NCBI GenBank assembly: GCA_018064665.1
Contig: JAGHUV010000003.1
Span: forward strand, 1 to 51,045
Reading direction: 5' to 3'
Length of the DNA: 51,045 nt
Source: Candidatus Crickella caballi
Lineage (GTDB): Bacteria > Bacillota > Clostridia > Peptostreptococcales > Anaerovoracaceae
Both the position numbers and the translations under genes were made by a program. Position 1 is the stretch's first letter. Each line of letters opens with the position of its first letter. Positions 34,926 to 44,211 of the stretch are shown piece by piece. Under the pieces are notes generated by a model that did not search any database, was not told the DNA's origin, and saw nothing but the letters and a program-made list of their open reading frames with translations.

Positions 34926-36012
34926 ATACCCTGCACTTAGGATAGATCACTCAAAGCTCAAATATAACATGAAGACGATAGTCGGCTGGTGTACCGAAGC
35001 CGGAATCGACGTTGCCGGAATAATTAAGGTAAGCAACGGTTTGCCTTCAGCTGCGCTCGACTACGAGGAGGCTGGCGCAAAGTGGATCGGATCGTCAAGA
35101 ATAGAGCAGCTCAGAGGAGCAAAGAATGCAGGCGTCAAGGTGCCGCTTCTCATGATAAGAGTGCCAATGCTTTCAGAGCTGGACGAAATCGTAGAGGTAT
35201 GTGACTACAGTCTGCAGAGCGAAATAAGAACTCTCGAAGCCATTAACGAAGCAGCAGCTGCTGCAGGAAAGATTCATAATGTGATTCTCATGGCAGACAC
35301 AGGTGACCTGAGAGAAGGCTTTATAGATTATGATGAGATGACTGAAGTTGCAGTCAAGGTCGAGAATGAACTCCACAATCTGCATCTTGCAGGTATCGGA
35401 ACCAATCTTGGCTGTACCGGCTCTGTAAAGCCTACGGGCGAGAAGATGGAGCTGCTTGTCTCGATAGCAGAGAAAATTGAAAAGGCTATCGGAAGAGAGC
35501 TTGAGATTATCTCCGGTGGAGCAAGCTCAAGTCTGATGCCGGTATTCGACGGAGTTATGCCTGAGAGGGTCAACATGCTCAGGATAGGAGAGGCGAGCTT
35601 CGTAGGGGATATGGGAGATCTTAGAACTGCATATGGCCGCACAGAGGCTGATGGCTTGTATGGTGATGTCGTAACACTTGATGCACAGGTTATTGAGTCC
35701 AAGACTAAGCCAAGCCACCCGATAGGAGAGCTCGGAGTTAATGCTTTTGGCGAGAGACCTGTATATGTGGATCGCGGTAACCGCAGGAGAATACTCCTTG
35801 GTGTCGGAAGAGCGGACTACGGAGAGACCGGTGATCTGGTACCGCTTCTTGATGGAGCTTTCATAGAGGCTGCTTCAGGAGATCACACTATAGTGGACAT
35901 CGAAGAGTGCAAGACAAAGCTTGAAGTAGGTGATATAATGACTTTTAAGCTCAAGTATTCTGCAATCTTAAGATTGTCAGGAAGTGAAAATGTTAAGATT
36001 TACGAGAAATAG
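34918..36012 (+). CDS. Ornithine/alanine racemase family PLP enzyme
   Basis: A fold-III PLP enzyme of the Orr-like branch. YPALRIDHSKLKYNM starts the barrel, and GIIKVSNG holds the candidate PLP-Lys. LMADTGDLREGF, GIGTNLGCTG and the C-terminal LGVGRADYG with DHTIVDIEE follow. Length (364) and layout fit Clostridial ornithine racemase relatives rather than classic Alr. Clostridia use such enzymes in ornithine fermentation, but no ornithine aminomutase genes are nearby. The start at 34918 overlaps the acyl-CoA synthetase stop by eight bases after AGGAAGG. Confidence 0.85.
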   Translation: MDKYPALRIDHSKLKYNMKTIVGWCTEAGIDVAGIIKVSNGLPSAALDYEEAGAKWIGSSRIEQLRGAKNAGVKVPLLMIRVPMLSELDEIVEVCDYSLQSEIRTLEAINEAAAAAGKIHNVILMADTGDLREGFIDYDEMTEVAVKVENELHNLHLAGIGTNLGCTGSVKPTGEKMELLVSIAEKIEKAIGRELEIISGGASSSLMPVFDGVMPERVNMLRIGEASFVGDMGDLRTAYGRTEADGLYGDVVTLDAQVIESKTKPSHPIGELGVNAFGERPVYVDRGNRRRILLGVGRADYGETGDLVPLLDGAFIEAASGDHTIVDIEECKTKLEVGDIMTFKLKYSAILRLSGSENVKIYEK

Positions 36013-36068
36013 AACGGCTAACTAACAGCGCAAGCGTCTGCTGAGCTGTATCAAAGAAAGGAATGACA

Positions 36069-36554
36069 ATGGCAGTTAATAATTCTAATGAAATGACAAG
36101 AGCGGGCTATGAGGCCCTGAATGAAGAGCTTGAATATCTTATAACCGTCGTACGTAAAGAGAACGCTGAGAGACTTAAAGAAGCCATCTCACTGGGAGAT
36201 ATTTCCGAGAACGCTGAATATGATGCAGCTAAGGATGCACAGGCAGAGACTGAAGAGCGCATCAATGCTATCGAGGAGAGTCTCAGAACAGCTGTTATCG
36301 TTGAGCTTGGCGAAGGCGACGAGAGCGACGATACAGTTAAGACAGGTCGTACAGTAACTGTTAAGGACCTGGTACTCGGAATTGAGTCAACTTATCAGAT
36401 CGTGGGAACTACAGAAGCAGATCCTCTGCACGGCAAGCTTTCGAACGCTTGTCTGGTTGGACAGCACCTTCTCGGCTGCAAGGCAGGAGATGTTGTGGAA
36501 TTCCAGATTCCTGACGGCATAGCTAAATATGAGGTTCTGGAGGTTAGCAAGTAA
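36069..36554 (+). CDS. greA: Transcription elongation factor GreA
   Basis: GreA rescues backtracked RNA polymerase by promoting transcript cleavage. The N-terminal coiled coil has LKEAISLGDISENAEYDAAKDAQ with the two tip acidic residues, and the C-terminal FKBP-like domain includes TYQIVGTTEADPLHGKLSNACLVGQHLLGCKAGD. The ATG at 36069 is preferred over 36063 because AAAGGA (36056-36061) is then at normal distance. The stop overlaps lysS by one base. Confidence 0.96.
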   Translation: MAVNNSNEMTRAGYEALNEELEYLITVVRKENAERLKEAISLGDISENAEYDAAKDAQAETEERINAIEESLRTAVIVELGEGDESDDTVKTGRTVTVKDLVLGIESTYQIVGTTEADPLHGKLSNACLVGQHLLGCKAGDVVEFQIPDGIAKYEVLEVSK

Positions 36555-38083
36555 TGGCAGAGAATGTAAAGCAGGTCGAAGAGCGCGAATTAAGCGAAAA
36601 GGAGATCGGCGAACAGCGTCAGATTAAGAGAAATAAATTGGAAGAGCTGCGTGCTATGGGAAGAGACCCATATCTCGTAGAGACATATGATGTAACTGCA
36701 CACTCCAAGGACATCAAGGACAACTTTGAGGCAATGGAGGACCAGGAGGTCAGAATTGCAGGAAGAATCATGGCATTCAGAAGAATGGGCAAGGTTGCAT
36801 TCGTTGACCTGCAGGACAAGCAGGGAAGAATCCAGTCCTTCGTAGCTCGTGACAATATCGGAGCTGATGAGTACCAGATTTTCAAGACATATGATGTAGG
36901 CGATATCATCGGTGTTCATGGCGTAGTTTTCAAGACTAAGACAGGCGAGACAAGTGTCAGAGCAGATGAAGTACAGCTGCTTTGCAAGTCACTGCAGGTA
37001 CTCCCTAACAAGTGGCATGGTCTTAAGGACACTGACCTCAGATACCGTCAGAGATACGTTGACCTCATTATGAACGAGGATGTAAGAGACGTATTCATGA
37101 AGAGAGCCAAGATCATTTCAACTATGAGAAAGGTTCTTGAGGAAGATTACGATCTTATCGAGGTTGAGACTCCTGTACTCGGCAACATCGCAGGCGGAGC
37201 AGCAGCAAGACCTTTCCTCACTCACCATAACACTTTGGACATTGATATGACTCTCAGAATCTCTCTCGAGCTTCACCTCAAGAGACTGATCGTTGGAGGA
37301 CTTGACGGCGTATACGAGATTGGCAAGGTTTTCCGTAATGAGGGAATGGACAAGAACCACAGTCCTGAGTTCACATCAATGGAAGCATACAAGGCTTATG
37401 TTAACCTTGAGACTATGATGGACCTCATGGAGCAGGTTACATATAAGTGCGCTATGGCTGTTAACGGAACACCTATCATCAAGTACGGTGATAAGGAATT
37501 CGACGTTACTCCTCCATGGAAGAAGATCGACATGACAGAGGCAGTAATTAAGACAACCGGAATTCCTTTCGACAAGATCCTGACTGATGAAGAGGCAATC
37601 GAGGCAGCTAAGAAGTACGGAATGACTTTCGAGAACGAGTCAGACTGGAGCCGTGGTAAGATCATCGCTGAGATGTTCGAAGACTACTGCGAGGATATCC
37701 CGGGATTCCTTGACGGACCATGCTTCGTATGCGGACATCCGCTTGAGATTTCACCTCTTGCCAAGAAGGACCCTAAGGACCCGAGAATTACAAGAAGATT
37801 CGAGTCATATATCAATGGCTGGGAGCTGTCGAATGCGTTCTCTGAGCTGAACGACCCTATCGATCAGTACGAGAGATTTGCTGAACAGCAGAGACAGCTC
37901 GACCTTGGAATCGATGATGAGGCACATCCAATGGATACAGATTTCGTCAATGCACTCGAGGTTGGAATGCCACCTACAGGCGGAATCGGAATCGGCGTAG
38001 ACAGACTGGTAATGCTGCTTACAGACAGCGCAACAATCAGAGACGTACAGCTGTTCCCGACAATGAAGCCGGAAAGCAAGTAA
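36554..38083 (+). CDS. lysS: Lysyl-tRNA synthetase, class II
   Basis: This enzyme charges tRNA(Lys). An N-terminal OB anticodon-binding domain (VRIAGRIMAFRRMGKVAFVDLQD) is followed by the class II core, with motif 1 around FLIEVETP-like DLIEVETPVLG, motif 2 GKVFRNEGMDKNHSPEFTSMEAY, and motif 3 PPTGGIGIGVDRLVML. Its 509 residues are full length. The greA-lysS overlap is common in Clostridia. Confidence 0.98.
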   Translation: MAENVKQVEERELSEKEIGEQRQIKRNKLEELRAMGRDPYLVETYDVTAHSKDIKDNFEAMEDQEVRIAGRIMAFRRMGKVAFVDLQDKQGRIQSFVARDNIGADEYQIFKTYDVGDIIGVHGVVFKTKTGETSVRADEVQLLCKSLQVLPNKWHGLKDTDLRYRQRYVDLIMNEDVRDVFMKRAKIISTMRKVLEEDYDLIEVETPVLGNIAGGAAARPFLTHHNTLDIDMTLRISLELHLKRLIVGGLDGVYEIGKVFRNEGMDKNHSPEFTSMEAYKAYVNLETMMDLMEQVTYKCAMAVNGTPIIKYGDKEFDVTPPWKKIDMTEAVIKTTGIPFDKILTDEEAIEAAKKYGMTFENESDWSRGKIIAEMFEDYCEDIPGFLDGPCFVCGHPLEISPLAKKDPKDPRITRRFESYINGWELSNAFSELNDPIDQYERFAEQQRQLDLGIDDEAHPMDTDFVNALEVGMPPTGGIGIGVDRLVMLLTDSATIRDVQLFPTMKPESK

Positions 38084-38174
38084 GAATTGAATTGATGTGC
38101 ACTTGCAGCATTTCTGGTTTTCATAGTCAGAGGAGACCGAAAGCCGTAAGAAGATAAAGACTTATGATAAAAGG

Positions 38175-38211
38175 AGGAACTTTACGGATAAATCAGTAAA
38201 GTTCCTTTTTA
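38175..38211 (+). terminator. Terminator of lysS
   Basis: AGGAACTTTAC (38175-38185) pairs perfectly with GTAAAGTTCCT (38196-38206), loop of ten, then a T-run. Confidence 0.93.
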
Positions 38212-38230
38212 TCTGCATGCAATTTTGCTC

Positions 38231-38259
38231 TTGACAATCCAAAGTGCTCAATATATATT
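38231..38259 (+). promoter_or_regulatory. Promoter of the pyrimidine operon
   Basis: TTGACA (38231-38236), 17 bases, TATATT (38254-38259), almost perfect consensus. The transcript would start near 38266, about 190 bases before pyrBI. Confidence 0.92.
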
Positions 38260-38316
38260 ATACCGAGTACATTAAATTAAACGAGAGCAGAGCTTTATTG
38301 CGTGGAGGTTTTTTCG

Positions 38317-38397
38317 ATGTTGGTTTCAGTTCGAAATAAAATAAAAGCACCCTTCTGCGTAGATGATGTTTCTGCTTTCAAAATAACTGTTTTTTAA
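38317..38397 (+). CDS. Leader peptide of the pyr operon (pyrL-like)
   Basis: A 26-codon frame starts MLVSVRNKIK and ends ITVF-stop. GGAGG (38304-38308) lies eight bases before the ATG. The last codons run through six U (38390-38395), and the stop ends two bases before the terminator stem. A ribosome at the stop would cover the 5' arm of that terminator. This matches the logic of the E. coli pyrBI leader, in which UTP shortage slows polymerase in a U-rich tract so that a trailing ribosome prevents termination. The peptide itself resembles nothing I recognise, and its translation is inferred. Confidence 0.7.
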   Translation: MLVSVRNKIKAPFCVDDVSAFKITVF

Positions 38398-38399
38398 TT

Positions 38400-38424
38400 C
38401 CGGTTTTTCAACCGGTATTTTTTT
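38400..38424 (+). terminator. Attenuator terminator upstream of pyrBI
   Basis: CCGGTT (38400-38405), loop TTTC, AACCGG (38410-38415), then TA and seven T (38418-38424). It lies within the operon leader, 30 bases before the pyrBI start, so it must be conditional. Confidence 0.85.
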
Positions 38425-38453
38425 ATATCATTTTTAGAAAGTGAGGACTTCAT

Positions 38454-40034
38454 ATGAGCAATATTTTCAAAGGTAGATCCCTCAATGTTATTGAGGATTT
38501 TTCTATCGAAGAAAGAAGATATCTCTTCCAGAAGGTGTTTGAGTTGAAAAAGGCTATTCAGGAAGGTGATGAGGAGAAGCAGGATCAGTTTCGCATTAAC
38601 GATCCGGACTTTGGTATATACTCTGTATTCCTTGAAAATTCGACCAGAACGAGAGAGAGCTTTAAGAACGCTGCAAAATTCCACCATGCCAAGGTGAGCG
38701 AACTTCTTACCGGCGGATCTTCCATCAACAAGGGAGAGTCTTATGCGGACACATTTAATACGATTTCCGGATATCAGAATCAGATTTTCGTCGTAAGAAG
38801 CACGGTGGAGGGTCTCACCAGATGGCTAAGCGAGGAAACCAAAGAATATACCAGACGTAACAATCTTCCGTATACACCGGCTTTCATTAACGCCGGCGAC
38901 GGCAAGCACGAGCATCCAACTCAGGAGCTCCTCGATGAGTTCTCCTTCCTTGAGGACAACGATATGAGCTTTGACAGTATCCACGTTGCACTGGTTGGCG
39001 ACCTCTATCATGGAAGAACAGTTCACAGTAAAGCAAACGGCCTGAAAGTGTTTGATCACGTCAAGGTCGATCTGATTGCGCCGGATGAACTGCAGATGCC
39101 GGAAAATTATGTAGAACTGATGCGTGAAAACGGCTTCGAGGTTCGCTCCTTCGACTCCATTGAACATTATCTGGAGGACGAGGATATTTCTGACAAGTGG
39201 TATTTTACCCGTCCGCAGCTGGAACGTATGGGAGACAAGATTCTGCAGAAGCAGGATGTGCTGCGTCAGTCCATCACATTCCGCAAGGATTTCCTCGATA
39301 AGGTCAAAGAAGGAACGAAATTCTATCATCCGCTTCCACGACACAGAGAGCACCCAACGATTCCTACATGGCTGGATGAAACAAGTCTTAACGGTTGGGA
39401 GCGACAGTCGATCAATGGATACTACTGCCGTATCGTTCTGATTTCTCTGATTGCAGGTGTTATCGGTGAGGATTATGTACCGGTGCTGAGCTCCGAAAAG
39501 GCTGAGGACGTGGACTATATTCAGGAAGTACCGACAGCAGGTACCAAGAAAGAGACGGAATACAGCGAGGGCGTACGTCCAATCCAAAACGGTCTTGTGA
39601 TAGACCATATCGGCAAAGGAAATTCTGCCAAGGAAATCCGAAGCCATATGAATCTTATTTCAAGCGTAATGGGTATGGACGATGAACGCGGCGGTCAGTG
39701 GATCAGCAGCGGCGCAAACGGTCAGTATAAGGGTATCATCTTCCGTCCGGAGAGAACAGAGATGACCAGAAAAGAGCTTAAGCGTCTGGCGGCTGTAGCA
39801 CCCGGCAGCACATTAAATATCGTAAAGGATGGCAGAGTGGATCAGAAATTCCGCGCGAATATGCCACCGCGCATTTATAATTTTGATGACCTGATTTGCA
39901 AAAACGAAGCATGCATTACAAACCCGGTTAACAGTGAAAACGTGCCATGCAAGTTCTCGCGCACAGCTGACGACCACTTTGCATGCGCTTACTGCGGCAA
40001 GTTCTACACCTTCAAGGAAATTTGGAAAAAGTGA
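38454..40034 (+). CDS. pyrBI: Fused aspartate carbamoyltransferase catalytic and regulatory chains
   Basis: This catalyses the committed step of pyrimidine synthesis, carbamoyl phosphate plus aspartate to carbamoyl aspartate. Residues 1-350 are the catalytic chain: STRTRES (carbamoyl-phosphate site), HPTQELLDEF, and YHPLPRHRE. After a linker, residues 375-526 are the regulatory chain: GLVIDHIGKGNSAKEI at the nucleotide-binding start and a C-terminal zinc module CKNEAC and CAYC. In E. coli these are separate genes, pyrB and pyrI. Fusions occur in some bacteria. It is preceded by its attenuator and followed by pyrE after 10 bases. Confidence 0.95.
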   Translation: MSNIFKGRSLNVIEDFSIEERRYLFQKVFELKKAIQEGDEEKQDQFRINDPDFGIYSVFLENSTRTRESFKNAAKFHHAKVSELLTGGSSINKGESYADTFNTISGYQNQIFVVRSTVEGLTRWLSEETKEYTRRNNLPYTPAFINAGDGKHEHPTQELLDEFSFLEDNDMSFDSIHVALVGDLYHGRTVHSKANGLKVFDHVKVDLIAPDELQMPENYVELMRENGFEVRSFDSIEHYLEDEDISDKWYFTRPQLERMGDKILQKQDVLRQSITFRKDFLDKVKEGTKFYHPLPRHREHPTIPTWLDETSLNGWERQSINGYYCRIVLISLIAGVIGEDYVPVLSSEKAEDVDYIQEVPTAGTKKETEYSEGVRPIQNGLVIDHIGKGNSAKEIRSHMNLISSVMGMDDERGGQWISSGANGQYKGIIFRPERTEMTRKELKRLAAVAPGSTLNIVKDGRVDQKFRANMPPRIYNFDDLICKNEACITNPVNSENVPCKFSRTADDHFACAYCGKFYTFKEIWKK

Positions 40035-40044
40035 GGGATAAAAT

Positions 40045-40740
40045 ATGAAGAGCATTACTGAAATTCAGAACTATTACGGACCTAAACTGGCAAAGGCGGC
40101 ACTGAGCCTTGGTGCTATCAAGCTCAGTCCGGAAGAGCCATTTACCTGGGCGAGTGGATATCGTATGCCTATTTATAATGACAATCGACAGTTCCTGGCT
40201 GTACCGGAATGTCGCGCGCTGATCAGGGATGCTTTTGCCGAAATGGTAGAAGTACTTGGACTCGGTGACGTTGACAACATTTCCGGCACGGCGACTGCAG
40301 GTATTCCACATGCGACTACTCTTGCTGACAAGCTTGGAAAGCCGATGAGCTATGTGCGTTCTTCTGCCAAGGATCATGGTATGGGAAACCAGATTGAGGG
40401 ACTTGCAGGCGGGAGCTTTAATGGACAGAAGGTGCTGCTGATTGAGGACCTGATTTCCACCGGATCTTCGAGCATCAAAGCAATCGAAGCGATCCGTCAG
40501 GCAGACGGCTTGTGTGATATCTGCCTCGCCATCTTTACCTACGGACTTGATAAGGCAACAGATGCTTTTGCAGCGCTTGACCCGAAGTGCAGCTTCTATA
40601 CTATACTGAACTACGATACGATGCTGCAGACAGCACTGGCAGATGGATATATTAGCGAAGAAAATGCAGAAAGCCTCAGACAGTGGCGTGAAAGCCCATT
40701 TACATGGGGCGAATCAAACGGCTTTCCGAAGGAGAAATAG
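40045..40740 (+). CDS. pyrE: Orotate phosphoribosyltransferase
   Basis: It joins orotate to PRPP to form OMP. The PRPP-binding block is VLLIEDLISTGSSSIKAIEAI, and FTWASGYRMPIYNDNR is the family N-terminal motif. SYVRSSAKDHGMGNQIEG is the mobile loop with catalytic Lys. Its 231 residues are normal. CGN arginine and CCG proline codons are more frequent here than in flanking operons. Confidence 0.95.
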   Translation: MKSITEIQNYYGPKLAKAALSLGAIKLSPEEPFTWASGYRMPIYNDNRQFLAVPECRALIRDAFAEMVEVLGLGDVDNISGTATAGIPHATTLADKLGKPMSYVRSSAKDHGMGNQIEGLAGGSFNGQKVLLIEDLISTGSSSIKAIEAIRQADGLCDICLAIFTYGLDKATDAFAALDPKCSFYTILNYDTMLQTALADGYISEENAESLRQWRESPFTWGESNGFPKEK

Positions 40741-40742
40741 AT

Positions 40743-41606
40743 ATGAATTATTTGGAATTATTGAAGCAAAGCGCGGAGAATGCGGGCAACATTCTCTGCA
40801 TGGGGCTTGATCCTGTTGCAGACGCGTTGCCACATGTGGAAAAAGACATCAGGAGCAGGATCACAGATTACTTTGAAGAGATTCTCACGGAGATGAAAAG
40901 ACGTGACGTTCGAGTGGCGGCGTTCAAGCCGAACCTCGGCTACTATGCACAGCTTGACAGACCGATGGAGGGCAGCTTTGAAGGCTCACTGGCACTGGCC
41001 GATGTGATACGTATGCTTCGCGATATGTTCTCGGATACTCCGATAATCCTGGATTCCAAGCGCGGAGACATTGCTACCAGCTCGCTGAACTATGCGAAGG
41101 AGGCTTTCGACGTGTGGACGGTTGATTGTGTCACCATTTCTCCATATATGGGTACAGATTCGGTGATGCCGTTCGCTTTTGAAAACAAAGGCGCATATAT
41201 TCTTAACCGCACCTCCAATCCGGGAGGTAAGGATCTCCAGAACAAGACTGAACAGAGCGGAGAGCCGTTCTATATGACGGTCGCTAAGGCAATTGCTATG
41301 TGGCATGAGGAGCATAATGGCATGGGTGCAGTTGTCGGCGCAACTAATCTCAAGGAATTTGAAGAAATTGCCGCATATTATGCAGACAAAAATATCCCGC
41401 TTCTTATACCGGGAGTTGGAAGCCAGGGCGGTACTGCACCGGAGGTAATGAAGCTGATGGAGGATGTAGGCTACCCACTGTCTCTTGCTCGTATCAATAG
41501 CTCGAGCGGATTGACACATCCATGGAAAAAAGGCCCGGCACCGGAGGATTATCTGGATAGGGTATTTGCAGGACTCAATAAGCTGACAAAGGAGACAACA
41601 ATTTGA
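40743..41606 (+). CDS. pyrF: Orotidine 5'-phosphate decarboxylase, type 2
   Basis: It decarboxylates OMP to UMP. LCMGLDPVADALP begins the barrel, and LDSKRGDIATSSLNYAKE contains the catalytic Asp-Lys-Asp set. VPGVGSQGG-type LIPGVGSQGGTAPEV and the final RINSSSGLTHPW place it in the longer (about 280-residue) type 2 group. The ATG at 40743 follows AAGGAGAAATAGAT; a longer in-frame reading starts inside pyrE and is rejected. Its TGA overlaps the pyrDK start. Confidence 0.93.
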   Translation: MNYLELLKQSAENAGNILCMGLDPVADALPHVEKDIRSRITDYFEEILTEMKRRDVRVAAFKPNLGYYAQLDRPMEGSFEGSLALADVIRMLRDMFSDTPIILDSKRGDIATSSLNYAKEAFDVWTVDCVTISPYMGTDSVMPFAFENKGAYILNRTSNPGGKDLQNKTEQSGEPFYMTVAKAIAMWHEEHNGMGAVVGATNLKEFEEIAAYYADKNIPLLIPGVGSQGGTAPEVMKLMEDVGYPLSLARINSSSGLTHPWKKGPAPEDYLDRVFAGLNKLTKETTI

Positions 41607-43273
41607 ACAGAGCGTATGAATTGCTTCATGGAAATCACAAACGAGGACAGATCGTTCTTTCCACCGTTTCCGGCGTTCTGACAACAGAGCCGGGTATGGT
41701 GGTGCACTTTGAAAACAAGGTGCCGTCCTGCGATATGATTACCACAAAGAGCTATCAGGTCGTGCAGACCTTCGGTCATCGTGAGCCTGTTGTGTGTTCG
41801 ACACAGGAGGGAAACTTTGGCAATTTTGTCGGATTGCGTAATCCGGGTATGGACGCGGTATATCCTAAGCTAAAGACTCTTTCCGATGGAGGGATGCGTG
41901 CTATTCTGAATATCAGCCTTTCAGCGAATAATCCGGAGGATTTTTCAACGCTTGTCGCAAAATTTGACGGAATCGCGGATCTTCTGGAGCTGAATTTCTC
42001 CTGCCCGCATGCACAGGCCGGTTTTGGTGCATCAATTGGAAGTGACCTGGAAACGGCGGCACTCTATGTCAGAACGATACTTCAAAATGTTCCGAATAGA
42101 AAAGCCCTTCTGATTATCAAACTGACACCAAATGTGAAGAATATCGGTGAGATTGCAAAGGCGGTCATCGACGCGGGAGCAGATGGTGTTGCGGCAATCA
42201 ACACAGTGGGACCGCTGGAACATATCGATCCTGTATCCGGTGAGCTGATTTTCTCCAAACAGGAAGGCGGCAAAGGCGGCGCATCCGGAGAGTGGGTCAG
42301 AGAACGTGCACTGGAGTGCGTTCGTGAGATTCGTGCCGCTGTCGGAGATGATCCGATAGTACTTGGTATGGGTGGTATAACGACAGCACTTGATGTGAGT
42401 CATATGATTGAAGCCGGTGCAGACAGTGTCGGAATTGGTTCTGCCCTGTCCCGTCTTGAAATGAAAGACTACGAAAACTACTTTGCCGCACTCAAAAGCG
42501 GTAAGGATGTGACATCATATATTGTTTCAGGCAACAAACTGCAGTATCAGAAGAGGACTGTTCTGAAGGCGAGAACAGTCTCCGGCGACATGCGTGAGCT
42601 GACACTTTCAGGTGAAATGAATTGCTACCCGGGACAGTTTGCTTTCCTCTGGGTACCACAGGTGGGGGAAAAGCCGTTTTCTGTCGCAGGAAACGCTCCA
42701 CTCAAGTTCCTCATACGTAAACGTGGACAGTTCTCTGAGTATTGCTTCTCGTTAAAGGAGGGGGATACGGTCTATACGCGCGGCCTTTACGGAAAGCCGA
42801 TGCAGATTGAGCCGTCTGAGCGCGCACTGCTGCTTGCAGGCGGTAGCGGCGTTGCGGTGCTGCCACTGATCGCAGAGCAACTTGAAAAACTGAAAATTCC
42901 AATGAATATGAAGGTCGGAGTACCGGTTAAACACGAGGAAGAGGCTCTTGAAGATGTTCTCTCCACATACGGTAGGATCAGCTACGTTGCTGATGACGGA
43001 AAACCGGGTCGCGTACTAGATACGATCAGCGAGGATGATGTAAGTGGCGATGTTCACGTCTATATTGTTGGGCCGGGTCCTATGATGGAGGCAGCGACGA
43101 AGCGCCTGCTTGAGCTTGGCATGAGCGAGGACAAGATACATATTTCCGTTGAAAAGCTGACGCTTTGCGGTGTCGGCCTGTGCGGAGAGTGCTTCTGTGC
43201 GGGGCGGCTTGCCTGCAAGGAAGGCACATTCTATACACTTACTGAATTGCAAGAAGGTGGTGAGCTGTCATGA
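41603..43273 (+). CDS. pyrDK: Fused dihydroorotate dehydrogenase catalytic (PyrD) and electron-transfer (PyrK) subunits
   Basis: This enzyme oxidises dihydroorotate to orotate and passes electrons to NAD+. Residues 1-300 are a class 1 FMN barrel, with ELNFSCPHAQ supplying the catalytic-loop Cys and GMGGITTALD and GADSVGIGSAL for FMN phosphate. Residues 305-556 are a PyrK-type ferredoxin-reductase unit: YPGQFAFLWVP, LLLAGGSGVAVLPL and a 2Fe-2S cluster at C522, C527, C530, C538. The two parts are separate genes in most Firmicutes. Translation seems to start at TTG (41603), overlapping the pyrF stop by four bases after AAGGAG. It overlaps pyrC by four bases. Confidence 0.92.
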   Translation: MNRAYELLHGNHKRGQIVLSTVSGVLTTEPGMVVHFENKVPSCDMITTKSYQVVQTFGHREPVVCSTQEGNFGNFVGLRNPGMDAVYPKLKTLSDGGMRAILNISLSANNPEDFSTLVAKFDGIADLLELNFSCPHAQAGFGASIGSDLETAALYVRTILQNVPNRKALLIIKLTPNVKNIGEIAKAVIDAGADGVAAINTVGPLEHIDPVSGELIFSKQEGGKGGASGEWVRERALECVREIRAAVGDDPIVLGMGGITTALDVSHMIEAGADSVGIGSALSRLEMKDYENYFAALKSGKDVTSYIVSGNKLQYQKRTVLKARTVSGDMRELTLSGEMNCYPGQFAFLWVPQVGEKPFSVAGNAPLKFLIRKRGQFSEYCFSLKEGDTVYTRGLYGKPMQIEPSERALLLAGGSGVAVLPLIAEQLEKLKIPMNMKVGVPVKHEEEALEDVLSTYGRISYVADDGKPGRVLDTISEDDVSGDVHVYIVGPGPMMEAATKRLLELGMSEDKIHISVEKLTLCGVGLCGECFCAGRLACKEGTFYTLTELQEGGELS

Positions 43274-44211
43274 TCGATCCGCATGTACACTTGAGGGATT
43301 GGAATCAGGCGGAAAAGGAAACCGTGAAGCATGGTCTTTCTGTGGCGAAATCATGTGGCTTTACCCATGTATTCGATATGCCGAATACGAACCCTCCTCT
43401 GACCGACCGTAAAACTATTCTAAAGCGGTTTGAATTGGCGAAGGGGATCGAGGGGATCACATACCACCTTTGGGCCGGCATCACAGCTGACCCGGAGCAG
43501 ATTGCCGAGATGGTTTCGGTGTACAACGAGCTTTATCCGAGAGTTGTTGGCTTGAAGATGTTTTTCGGACAGAGCACGGGAAATATGGGCATCTGTGATT
43601 ATGAAACGCAGCTGACCGTTTTTCGTAAGCTCAAAGAGCTGAATTATCGCGGAGTTGTCGCTATCCATGCAGAAAAGGAAAGCCTGCTGCAACCGGAACG
43701 ATATATTCAGGGTCGATTCGAAACACATTCGCTGGCAAGACCGGCTGTGGCAGAAATAGAGTCCGTGCGTGACGCCATTACAATTGTGGAGCAATCAGGG
43801 TTTGAGGGAACACTCCATATTGCCCATGTCAGTACAAAGGGTGCTATTGAAGAAATTATGAAGGCACGAGAGAAGATGCGCATTACAATGGGTGTTACAC
43901 CGCATCATGCGCTCTTTACGATGCAGGATGCGGCAGATCATGACCGCTACCTTAAAATGAACCCGCCACTTCGCGGGGAGGAAGACAGAAGGGCAGTTTT
44001 TGTATCGCTGCTGGACGGCACGGCGACATGGATTGAAAGCGACCATGCACCGCATACGCGGCAGCAGAAGGAGAGTGGAGCATCCGGAATTCCTGGCTTT
44101 GAAAATATGCTGCTTCTGATTGAAACTCTTAGGAAAGCAGGTATCTCCGAAACACGTCTGCATGAGCTAACGTATCAGAACGCGGCGGAACTGTTCAGTT
44201 TAGATGTATAA
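43270..44211 (+). CDS. pyrC: Dihydroorotase
   Basis: It cyclises carbamoyl aspartate to dihydroorotate. DPHVHLRD (metal-binding His 5 and 7) is at the very start, and DMPNTNPP follows. GLKMFFGQSTGNM carries the likely carboxylated Lys, with AIHAE, LHIAHVS and IESDHAPH for the remaining ligands. At 313 residues it lacks the N-terminal strand region found in longer class I enzymes. Its ATG overlaps the pyrDK stop (ATGA). It is the last gene of the operon. Confidence 0.93.
   Translation: MIDPHVHLRDWNQAEKETVKHGLSVAKSCGFTHVFDMPNTNPPLTDRKTILKRFELAKGIEGITYHLWAGITADPEQIAEMVSVYNELYPRVVGLKMFFGQSTGNMGICDYETQLTVFRKLKELNYRGVVAIHAEKESLLQPERYIQGRFETHSLARPAVAEIESVRDAITIVEQSGFEGTLHIAHVSTKGAIEEIMKAREKMRITMGVTPHHALFTMQDAADHDRYLKMNPPLRGEEDRRAVFVSLLDGTATWIESDHAPHTRQQKESGASGIPGFENMLLLIETLRKAGISETRLHELTYQNAAELFSLDV

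Follow-up and report, generated by a model that had tools for sequence, protein, structure and literature searches.

UTP-sensitive attenuation of pyrBI is a textbook case from enteric bacteria, and PyrR-dependent attenuation is the usual mode in Firmicutes. In the rph-pyrE attenuator of E. coli, the upstream translated frame is a full gene, which ends just before an intrinsic terminator. For E. coli pyrBI, a ribosome that blocks the terminator is the logic outlined in PMC5021804, and reiterative transcription at the initial U-run is outlined as a second mechanism in PMC6245113. Furthermore, in E. coli reporters outlined in PMC4824070, a terminator located 5 bp after the stop codon was less than 10% efficient and one located 28 bp after it about 90% efficient, and the repression of the terminator near the stop codon vanished without translation. 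That system resembles the locus described here in having a stop codon a few bp before a terminator, which there represses it, but it consists of engineered reporters and involves no nucleotide sensing. Among the matches listed from the open-access literature, taken by their titles and the starts of their abstracts and with most subscription papers lying outside, no such leader was reported in spirochaetes, in Clostridia or otherwise beyond enteric bacteria, which is weak evidence of absence. In a survey of leader genes including Spirochaetales (PMC4833913), pyrBI is absent from the main text, and the sole occurrence of 'pyrimidine' there means a type of base.

The window analysed here is a stretch of 51,045 nucleotides from Candidatus Crickella caballi, and all its features described below are on the + strand. 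Its pyr operon begins with pyrBI (38454..40034), encoding fused catalytic and regulatory chains of aspartate carbamoyltransferase (NF009916, 796 bits, curated cut-off 800), followed by pyrE (40045..40740), pyrF (40743..41606; the first in-frame ATG is at 40704, and 40743 is the probable start by eye), a pyrD-pyrK fusion encoding dihydroorotate dehydrogenase and its electron transfer subunit (41603..43273), and pyrC (43270..44211). There are therefore two gene fusions within one operon, pyrB-pyrI and pyrD-pyrK. The upstream gene lysS ends at 38083 and has a terminator of its own (38175-38206, by eye), so the leader of the operon is a separate unit. The order of parts in this leader is the same as in the K-12 sequence of E. 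coli pyrBI and its leader pyrL, namely promoter, ribosome-binding site (RBS), leader frame across a U-tract, terminator and pyrB. The main differences are that the known system is enteric while the present one is found in Spirochaetota and, probably by transfer, in Clostridia, and that here the fused pyrBI heads a five-gene operon.

The promoter TTGACA-17-TATATT (38231..38259) has its -35 element at 38231-38236, a 17-nt spacer and its -10 element at 38254-38259, with 11 of 12 consensus matches; however, the match alone is no evidence, because 1.2 such sites are expected in shuffles and one was found in the window scan. The transcript probably starts near 38266. The Shine-Dalgarno (SD) sequence GGAGG (38304..38308) precedes a leader frame (38317..38397), which begins with ATG at 38317, has 26 codons followed by TAA at 38395-38397, and encodes the peptide MLVSVRNKIKAPFCVDDVSAFKITVF. 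The six U of the U-tract (38390..38395), the presumed UTP-sensitive pause site, end with the T of the TAA stop codon, and this stop codon ends 2 nt before the stem of the intrinsic terminator (38400..38424; stem CCGGTT/AACCGG at 38400-38415, loop TTTC, U7 at 38418-38424). Terminator-like sites number one in the window as against 0.2 expected in shuffles. A probable RBS of pyrBI lies at 38440..38447 (by eye). The original prediction had named the promoter, the GGAGG, the 26-codon frame, the six U, the stop codon two bases before a perfect stem and the seven U after it; all of them are in place, yet that account is incomplete, as the pairing between the leader RBS and the side of the U-tract, described below, was missing from it. 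Whereas pyrL has 44 codons and runs through the terminator, the leader frame of the window and of many of its relatives stops at the stem. In addition, no U-run was seen by eye at the probable transcript start (38263-38272 is CCGAGTACAT), so that there is no sign here of the reiterative transcription that serves E. coli as a second control; it is an accessory and not the attenuator itself.

By sequence comparison, the operon is foreign to its host genus and of spirochaete ancestry. A PyrBI match of some kind is present in 46 of the 47 genomes of the genus, but outside the own genome these matches are weak, reaching no more than 105 bits versus 1219, and in a draw over the order a fused pyrBI at 1e-100 was found in only one of 393 genomes, which is the own genome. 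A scan of one genome per species, which detects close relatives only, gave 30 loci, of which two are in clostridial MAGs, 25 in spirochaetes and three in Neomarinimicrobiota. The proteins of the two clostridial MAGs (L032 and L033) show 77% identity to the window PyrBI, and the gene order of the window recurs in both MAGs and in all 25 spirochaete loci over the part that each contig covers. The spirochaete loci also match the fused PyrD-PyrK protein over its length, within the same limit of contig reach. A tree built from 35 PyrBI proteins groups the window with the two MAGs in a clade (100/99) nested within Spirochaetota. The sister of this clade is L035, a long branch (99/97), and both together fall within a larger supported set of 15 spirochaete rows (96/96). 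The simplest reading is a transfer from the spirochaete side to Clostridia. One spirochaete genome (G419) has two fused pyrBI copies, on its contigs C7 and C8, which could reflect duplication or contamination.

The single window is insufficient to lift its 26-codon frame above chance, but the family of homologous leaders does so. The pyrBI family was found at 1e-60 in 119 of the 139 genomes of one spirochaete order, and 114 of these matching genomes gave an upstream region, the other five being left out for a partial gene or a contig edge. The set of 119 upstream regions consists of the window, the two MAGs, one from Neomarinimicrobiota and 115 spirochaete regions from those 114 genomes. The scan found a terminator before pyrBI in 112 of the 119 regions, and two of the seven scan-negative ones (L101 and L157) have an apparent terminator with an imperfect stem (by eye). 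Clustering of the leaders at 75% identity gave 64 representatives. In a strict test (an SD of 5 bases or more, a start codon lying 45-110 nt ahead of the stem, and a frame that stays open as far as the stem), an SD-led frame reaches the stem in 45 of the 64 clusters, compared with 3.0 ± 1.8 in dinucleotide shuffles (maximum 9 in 200), and 19 clusters fail; with an SD of 4 bases, the numbers are 55 of 64 and 10.4 ± 2.7. When the start with the best SD was chosen blind to the frame, the frame was open to the stem in 44 of 46 clusters (16.1 ± 3.1 expected), with the stop codon ending from -10 to +15 nt of the stem in 34 of these 44 and further downstream in the other 10. Thus the expectation that alignment of related leaders would show a short frame ending at the stem with a varying peptide is borne out, and since the operon is not native to the genus, the relatives that show it are spirochaetes, not Clostridia; the pyrBI-type reading gains strong support from it. 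The leader appears to have travelled with the transferred operon.

Among the unclustered leaders, 100 of 112 pass the test with an SD of 4 bases. Six of the 12 that fail (L035, L075, L142, L147, L150 and L151) have by eye an SD-less frame near the presumed transcript start, and those of L075, L147, L150 and L151 are possibly leaderless leader peptides. Another of the 12 (L135) has a strong SD followed at a suitable distance by ATT, with a frame open through the terminator (by eye), a possible non-canonical leader start.

We consider it likely that the leader attenuates transcription through coupling to translation, in the manner of E. coli pyrBI: each sequence feature of a pyrBI-type attenuator that was looked for was found, and the functional features are predicted. 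RNA polymerase would start near 38266, make the leader RBS and frame, and reach the U-tract adjoining the terminator. With plentiful UTP it would pass quickly with no ribosome near, the hairpin at 38400-38415 would fold and transcription would stop. With scarce UTP the polymerase would linger in the U-tract and the ribosome on the leader frame would catch up; positioned at the end of the frame, over its last codons or over the stop codon 2 bases before the stem, this ribosome would block the hairpin, and pyrBI, pyrE, pyrF, pyrDK and pyrC would be transcribed. If this is true, pyrimidine synthesis across much of a bacterial order is controlled without a regulatory protein, this control persists after transfer to another phylum, and the 64 clusters offer some 60 divergent natural variants for dissecting the timing of ribosome and polymerase.

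The classic pyrBI model gains a concrete and testable addition from a hairpin of the leader RBS, since the RBS pairs specifically, across the family, with a segment beside or within the U-rich part. Pairing was analysed by an alignment-free swap test, in which the own two segments of a leader are compared with segments exchanged between leaders, because the leaders align poorly (MAFFT misplaces the hairpin arms in family F2). The sample comprised 57 leaders, namely the 55 clusters with an SD of at least 4 bases plus L165 and L170. When the RBS segment was paired with a sliding 14-nt segment, own pairs were better by 2.96 ± 0.41 kcal/mol at -32..-18 before the stem; the advantage fades within about 8 nt on either side and is about 0 further away. 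On the 5' side, the signal is strongest for segments within about -12..+4 of the start codon. The own pairs of the 57 leaders average -10.08 kcal/mol, compared with -6.99 ± 0.29 (minimum -8.10) in 5000 permutations of partners and -7.60 ± 0.34 (minimum -8.99) when partners were permuted within GC classes. For individual leaders, the own pair beats 95% of swaps in 19 of the 57 and is worse than the median in six. In family F2, AAGGG, AAGGT and AAGGAT on the start side stand by eye opposite CCCTT, ACCTT and ATCCTT. Swaps within families favour the own pair in only seven of 12 leaders of F2 and three of four of F6, and the mean pairing of the SD in comparison with shuffled frames rises modestly (+0.075 ± 0.021).

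Other measures of leader structure gave smaller signals. RNAalifold on six hand-made families predicted nothing in F1, F3, F4 and F5, an upstream helix unrelated to the RBS pairing in F2, and a helix including the SD in F6, which consists of five close relatives, with a covariance term of only -0.8. Folding of the leaders relative to shuffles gave z values of -0.84 ± 0.13 (-110..-10), -0.55 ± 0.15 (-80..-25) and +0.30 ± 0.12 (-50..0). A general pause hairpin at a fixed place before the U-tract was considered and rejected on its weak signal, a small bump at a distance of 5-7 nt (0.43-0.45 versus 0.32) in a scan from which L156, L158, L159 and L161 were left out.

The window itself has a shifted, non-typical version of the RBS pairing. 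In the narrow RBS register, 97% of swaps equal or beat its own pair, whereas with a wider 5' region no swap matches it, as the hairpin lies further 5'. In the predicted fold, the 5' side (38283..38308) includes the leader SD and the 3' side spans 38352..38379. GGAGG is bound to 38352-38356 (pairing probability 0.97-1.00) and 38283-38293 to 38368-38379, and the hairpin ends 10 nt short of the U-tract (U6). The fold of 38266-38397 has a z value of -2.0 (five of 200 shuffles are as good) and that of 38283-38379 one of -3.1, the latter for a stretch picked after seeing the fold. The RBS of E. coli pyrL also folds onto its U-tract in the minimum-energy structure, with an own pairing of -19.8 kcal/mol; of 1000 shuffled versions of the 3' segment, 3.3% do as well. 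While the pairing was tested as a family feature in the spirochaete-type leaders, pyrL is one sequence at p of about 0.03, which makes it a lead, not proof.

The sequence before the stem is rich in U. The T fraction is 0.43, 0.49 and 0.47 in three bins from -24 to -7 before the stem, as compared with 0.26 at -75..-38; the C fraction of the leaders is raised too, at -30..-19. At the positions of the three bins, 19 control terminators have a T fraction of only 0.20-0.25. T-runs of at least 4 occur in 32 of the 64 clusters, not clearly more than the 26.6 ± 3.2 obtained by shuffling this T-rich stretch itself, but the 8-mer with most T holds more of them than its shuffled counterpart (5.52 versus 5.03 ± 0.10). 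This means that the feature is U-richness rather than a perfect run, and it is on this U-richness that the specificity of UTP as the putative signal rests. A different reading is a translation-coupled attenuator which responds to translation capacity or growth rate instead of UTP, with the U-richness serving only for pairing with the purine-rich RBS. The words enriched before the stem, CTGTTT, GTTTCC and TGTTTC, are indeed partial complements of SD-type sequences, and the peak of RBS pairing at -32..-18 fits as well. However, the T fraction is still 0.47-0.49 at -18..-7, nearer to the stem than the pairing segment, where pairing offers no explanation, and the genes behind the leader are for pyrimidine synthesis in all 25 spirochaete loci compared, so we hold a sensor of translation capacity to be improbable.

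For a UTP-sensing attenuator, the hairpin between the leader RBS and the RNA beside the U-tract could either aid the pause or shut off the RBS once the polymerase leaves the U-tract. We prefer the latter, in which the hairpin would act as a timer: the length of the pause would set the time available for ribosome loading, and slow addition of U would favour readthrough. Two things weaken the case for a pause stabilised by the hairpin, namely how small the general signal at a fixed distance is and the results outlined for E. coli pyrL in PMC9291695, where the pause was not rescued by compensatory changes and NusA had no effect; the pause measured there lies about 24 nt upstream of the pyrL pause first described. 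On this basis we propose, as a tentative idea which may well fail, that the U-tract does double duty as a UTP-sensitive pause and, with adjacent bases, as the complement of the RBS, that the timer is general from spirochaetes to E. coli pyrL and so far unrecognised, and that it moves between phyla with the operon as a working unit, even into hosts with PyrR.

It could also be argued that the frame stands by chance before an ordinary terminator that merely lowers basal expression, since neither a 26-codon frame nor a promoter match is unusual when taken singly. The family counts speak against this (45 of 64 versus 3.0), and in 21 long loci an SD-led frame is found at 17 of the 21 pyrBI-leader terminators but at only five of 76 other terminator-like sites, which makes chance a very unlikely explanation. 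With stricter terminator criteria, the corresponding numbers are five of eight leaders and one of six control terminators.

PyrR-dependent attenuation concerns the same pathway and also acts by termination before pyr genes, but it needs a PyrR-binding loop (RF00515), and none was found in the leader. A search with Rfam at a relaxed threshold gave no PyrR element in 36000-42000, and matches at 38158-38238 and 38378-38426, far below the gathering scores, were taken as chance. A covariance search of the leader, which the original prediction had named as a possible refutation, found neither a PyrR element nor another Rfam element at a credible score; the remark in that prediction on the absence of a pyrR gene applies to the window alone and fails for the genome, which has pyrR on another contig (249 bits, cut-off 138). 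The only RF00515 match of the own genome, too, is on another contig, with 38 bits and thus below the gathering score of 54. In the genus, the RF00515 search gave a match in one of 47 genomes, namely this weak site, and a quick look for a PyrR-loop word at the native pyrB genes of genus mates (29 loci) showed scattered matches only. Moreover, PyrR over the cut-off is found in none of the 22 spirochaete genomes with fused pyrBI that were tested, while it is present in both clostridial MAGs. So although the genome has pyrR and a weak PyrR-like RNA site before a nucleobase permease gene, control of the operon by PyrR is scarcely credible. This site, which has an apparent terminator (by eye), is located at L001:1501-1587 (C11:48165-48251), before an NCS2 nucleobase permease gene, the best named match of which is uracil permease, below its cut-off, and which is followed by pyrR (C11:49711-50259). 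It may be that the recipient has retained PyrR to control uptake, alongside the operon it imported. One of the two MAGs (G413) has two pyrR matches, on its contigs C29 and C66, for which duplication or contamination is possible.

Amino-acid attenuation or an arrest peptide, in which the ribosome would stall at particular codons or on the nascent peptide, shares the short leader frame before a terminator, but we give it hardly any weight, as runs of three identical residues number only four in 57 leader peptides, codon positions vary equally and no antiterminator was found. In the gapless ones of 24 nearest-neighbour leader pairs, substitutions by codon position 1, 2 and 3 are 43, 43 and 44, which indicates that the leader peptide is not conserved and that the ribosome matters, not the peptide; the conserved peptide of an arrest-peptide leader was accordingly not found, nor the regulatory codon run with alternative antiterminator of an amino-acid leader. 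The indels in the nearest-neighbour pairs, two of length 1 and two of length 3, are too few for use. An antiterminator was rejected, with no excess complementarity to either terminator arm (4.56 for the left arm versus 4.80 in shuffles).

Beyond the order, an even draw over the phylum gave the pyrBI family at 1e-60 in 60 of 344 genomes, 38 of which are outside the order. Among 36 loci of these 38 (G814 and G827 were left out; L198-L200 are weak, stop-interrupted matches), the terminator scan was positive in 15 and negative in 21, two of the latter (L187 and L188) having an apparent terminator with a long loop (by eye). In L165-L170, which we take to be Treponema relatives, the leader frame ends at the stem, though L166 fails the SD rule with GGGGG. 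The frame of L174 runs through the terminator (by eye), as do through the stem those of L191, L194 and L196, which pass the loose SD test, and L189 has a terminator with no leader frame seen. The architecture therefore appears to be typical of one order and shared by some relatives, but not general among spirochaetes. In the related L194 and L196, a similar frame of about 64 codons with a weak SD spans from about 200 to 10 nt upstream of pyrBI, crossing a terminator that lies 109 nt ahead of the gene; this may be another type of leader. In L181, L185 and L190, the frame upstream is long and its end lies 6-9 nt ahead of the terminator (8 nt in the weak match L200). Together with L158, L159 and L161 from within the order (by eye), L181, L185 and L190 seem to lack a promoter and a short leader, and what stops 5-9 nt ahead of the terminator is an upstream gene or a long frame. 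These six loci resemble E. coli rph-pyrE in geometry (L158, L159 and L161 by eye), which the window does not, and they suggest that the end of a gene can replace the leader frame.
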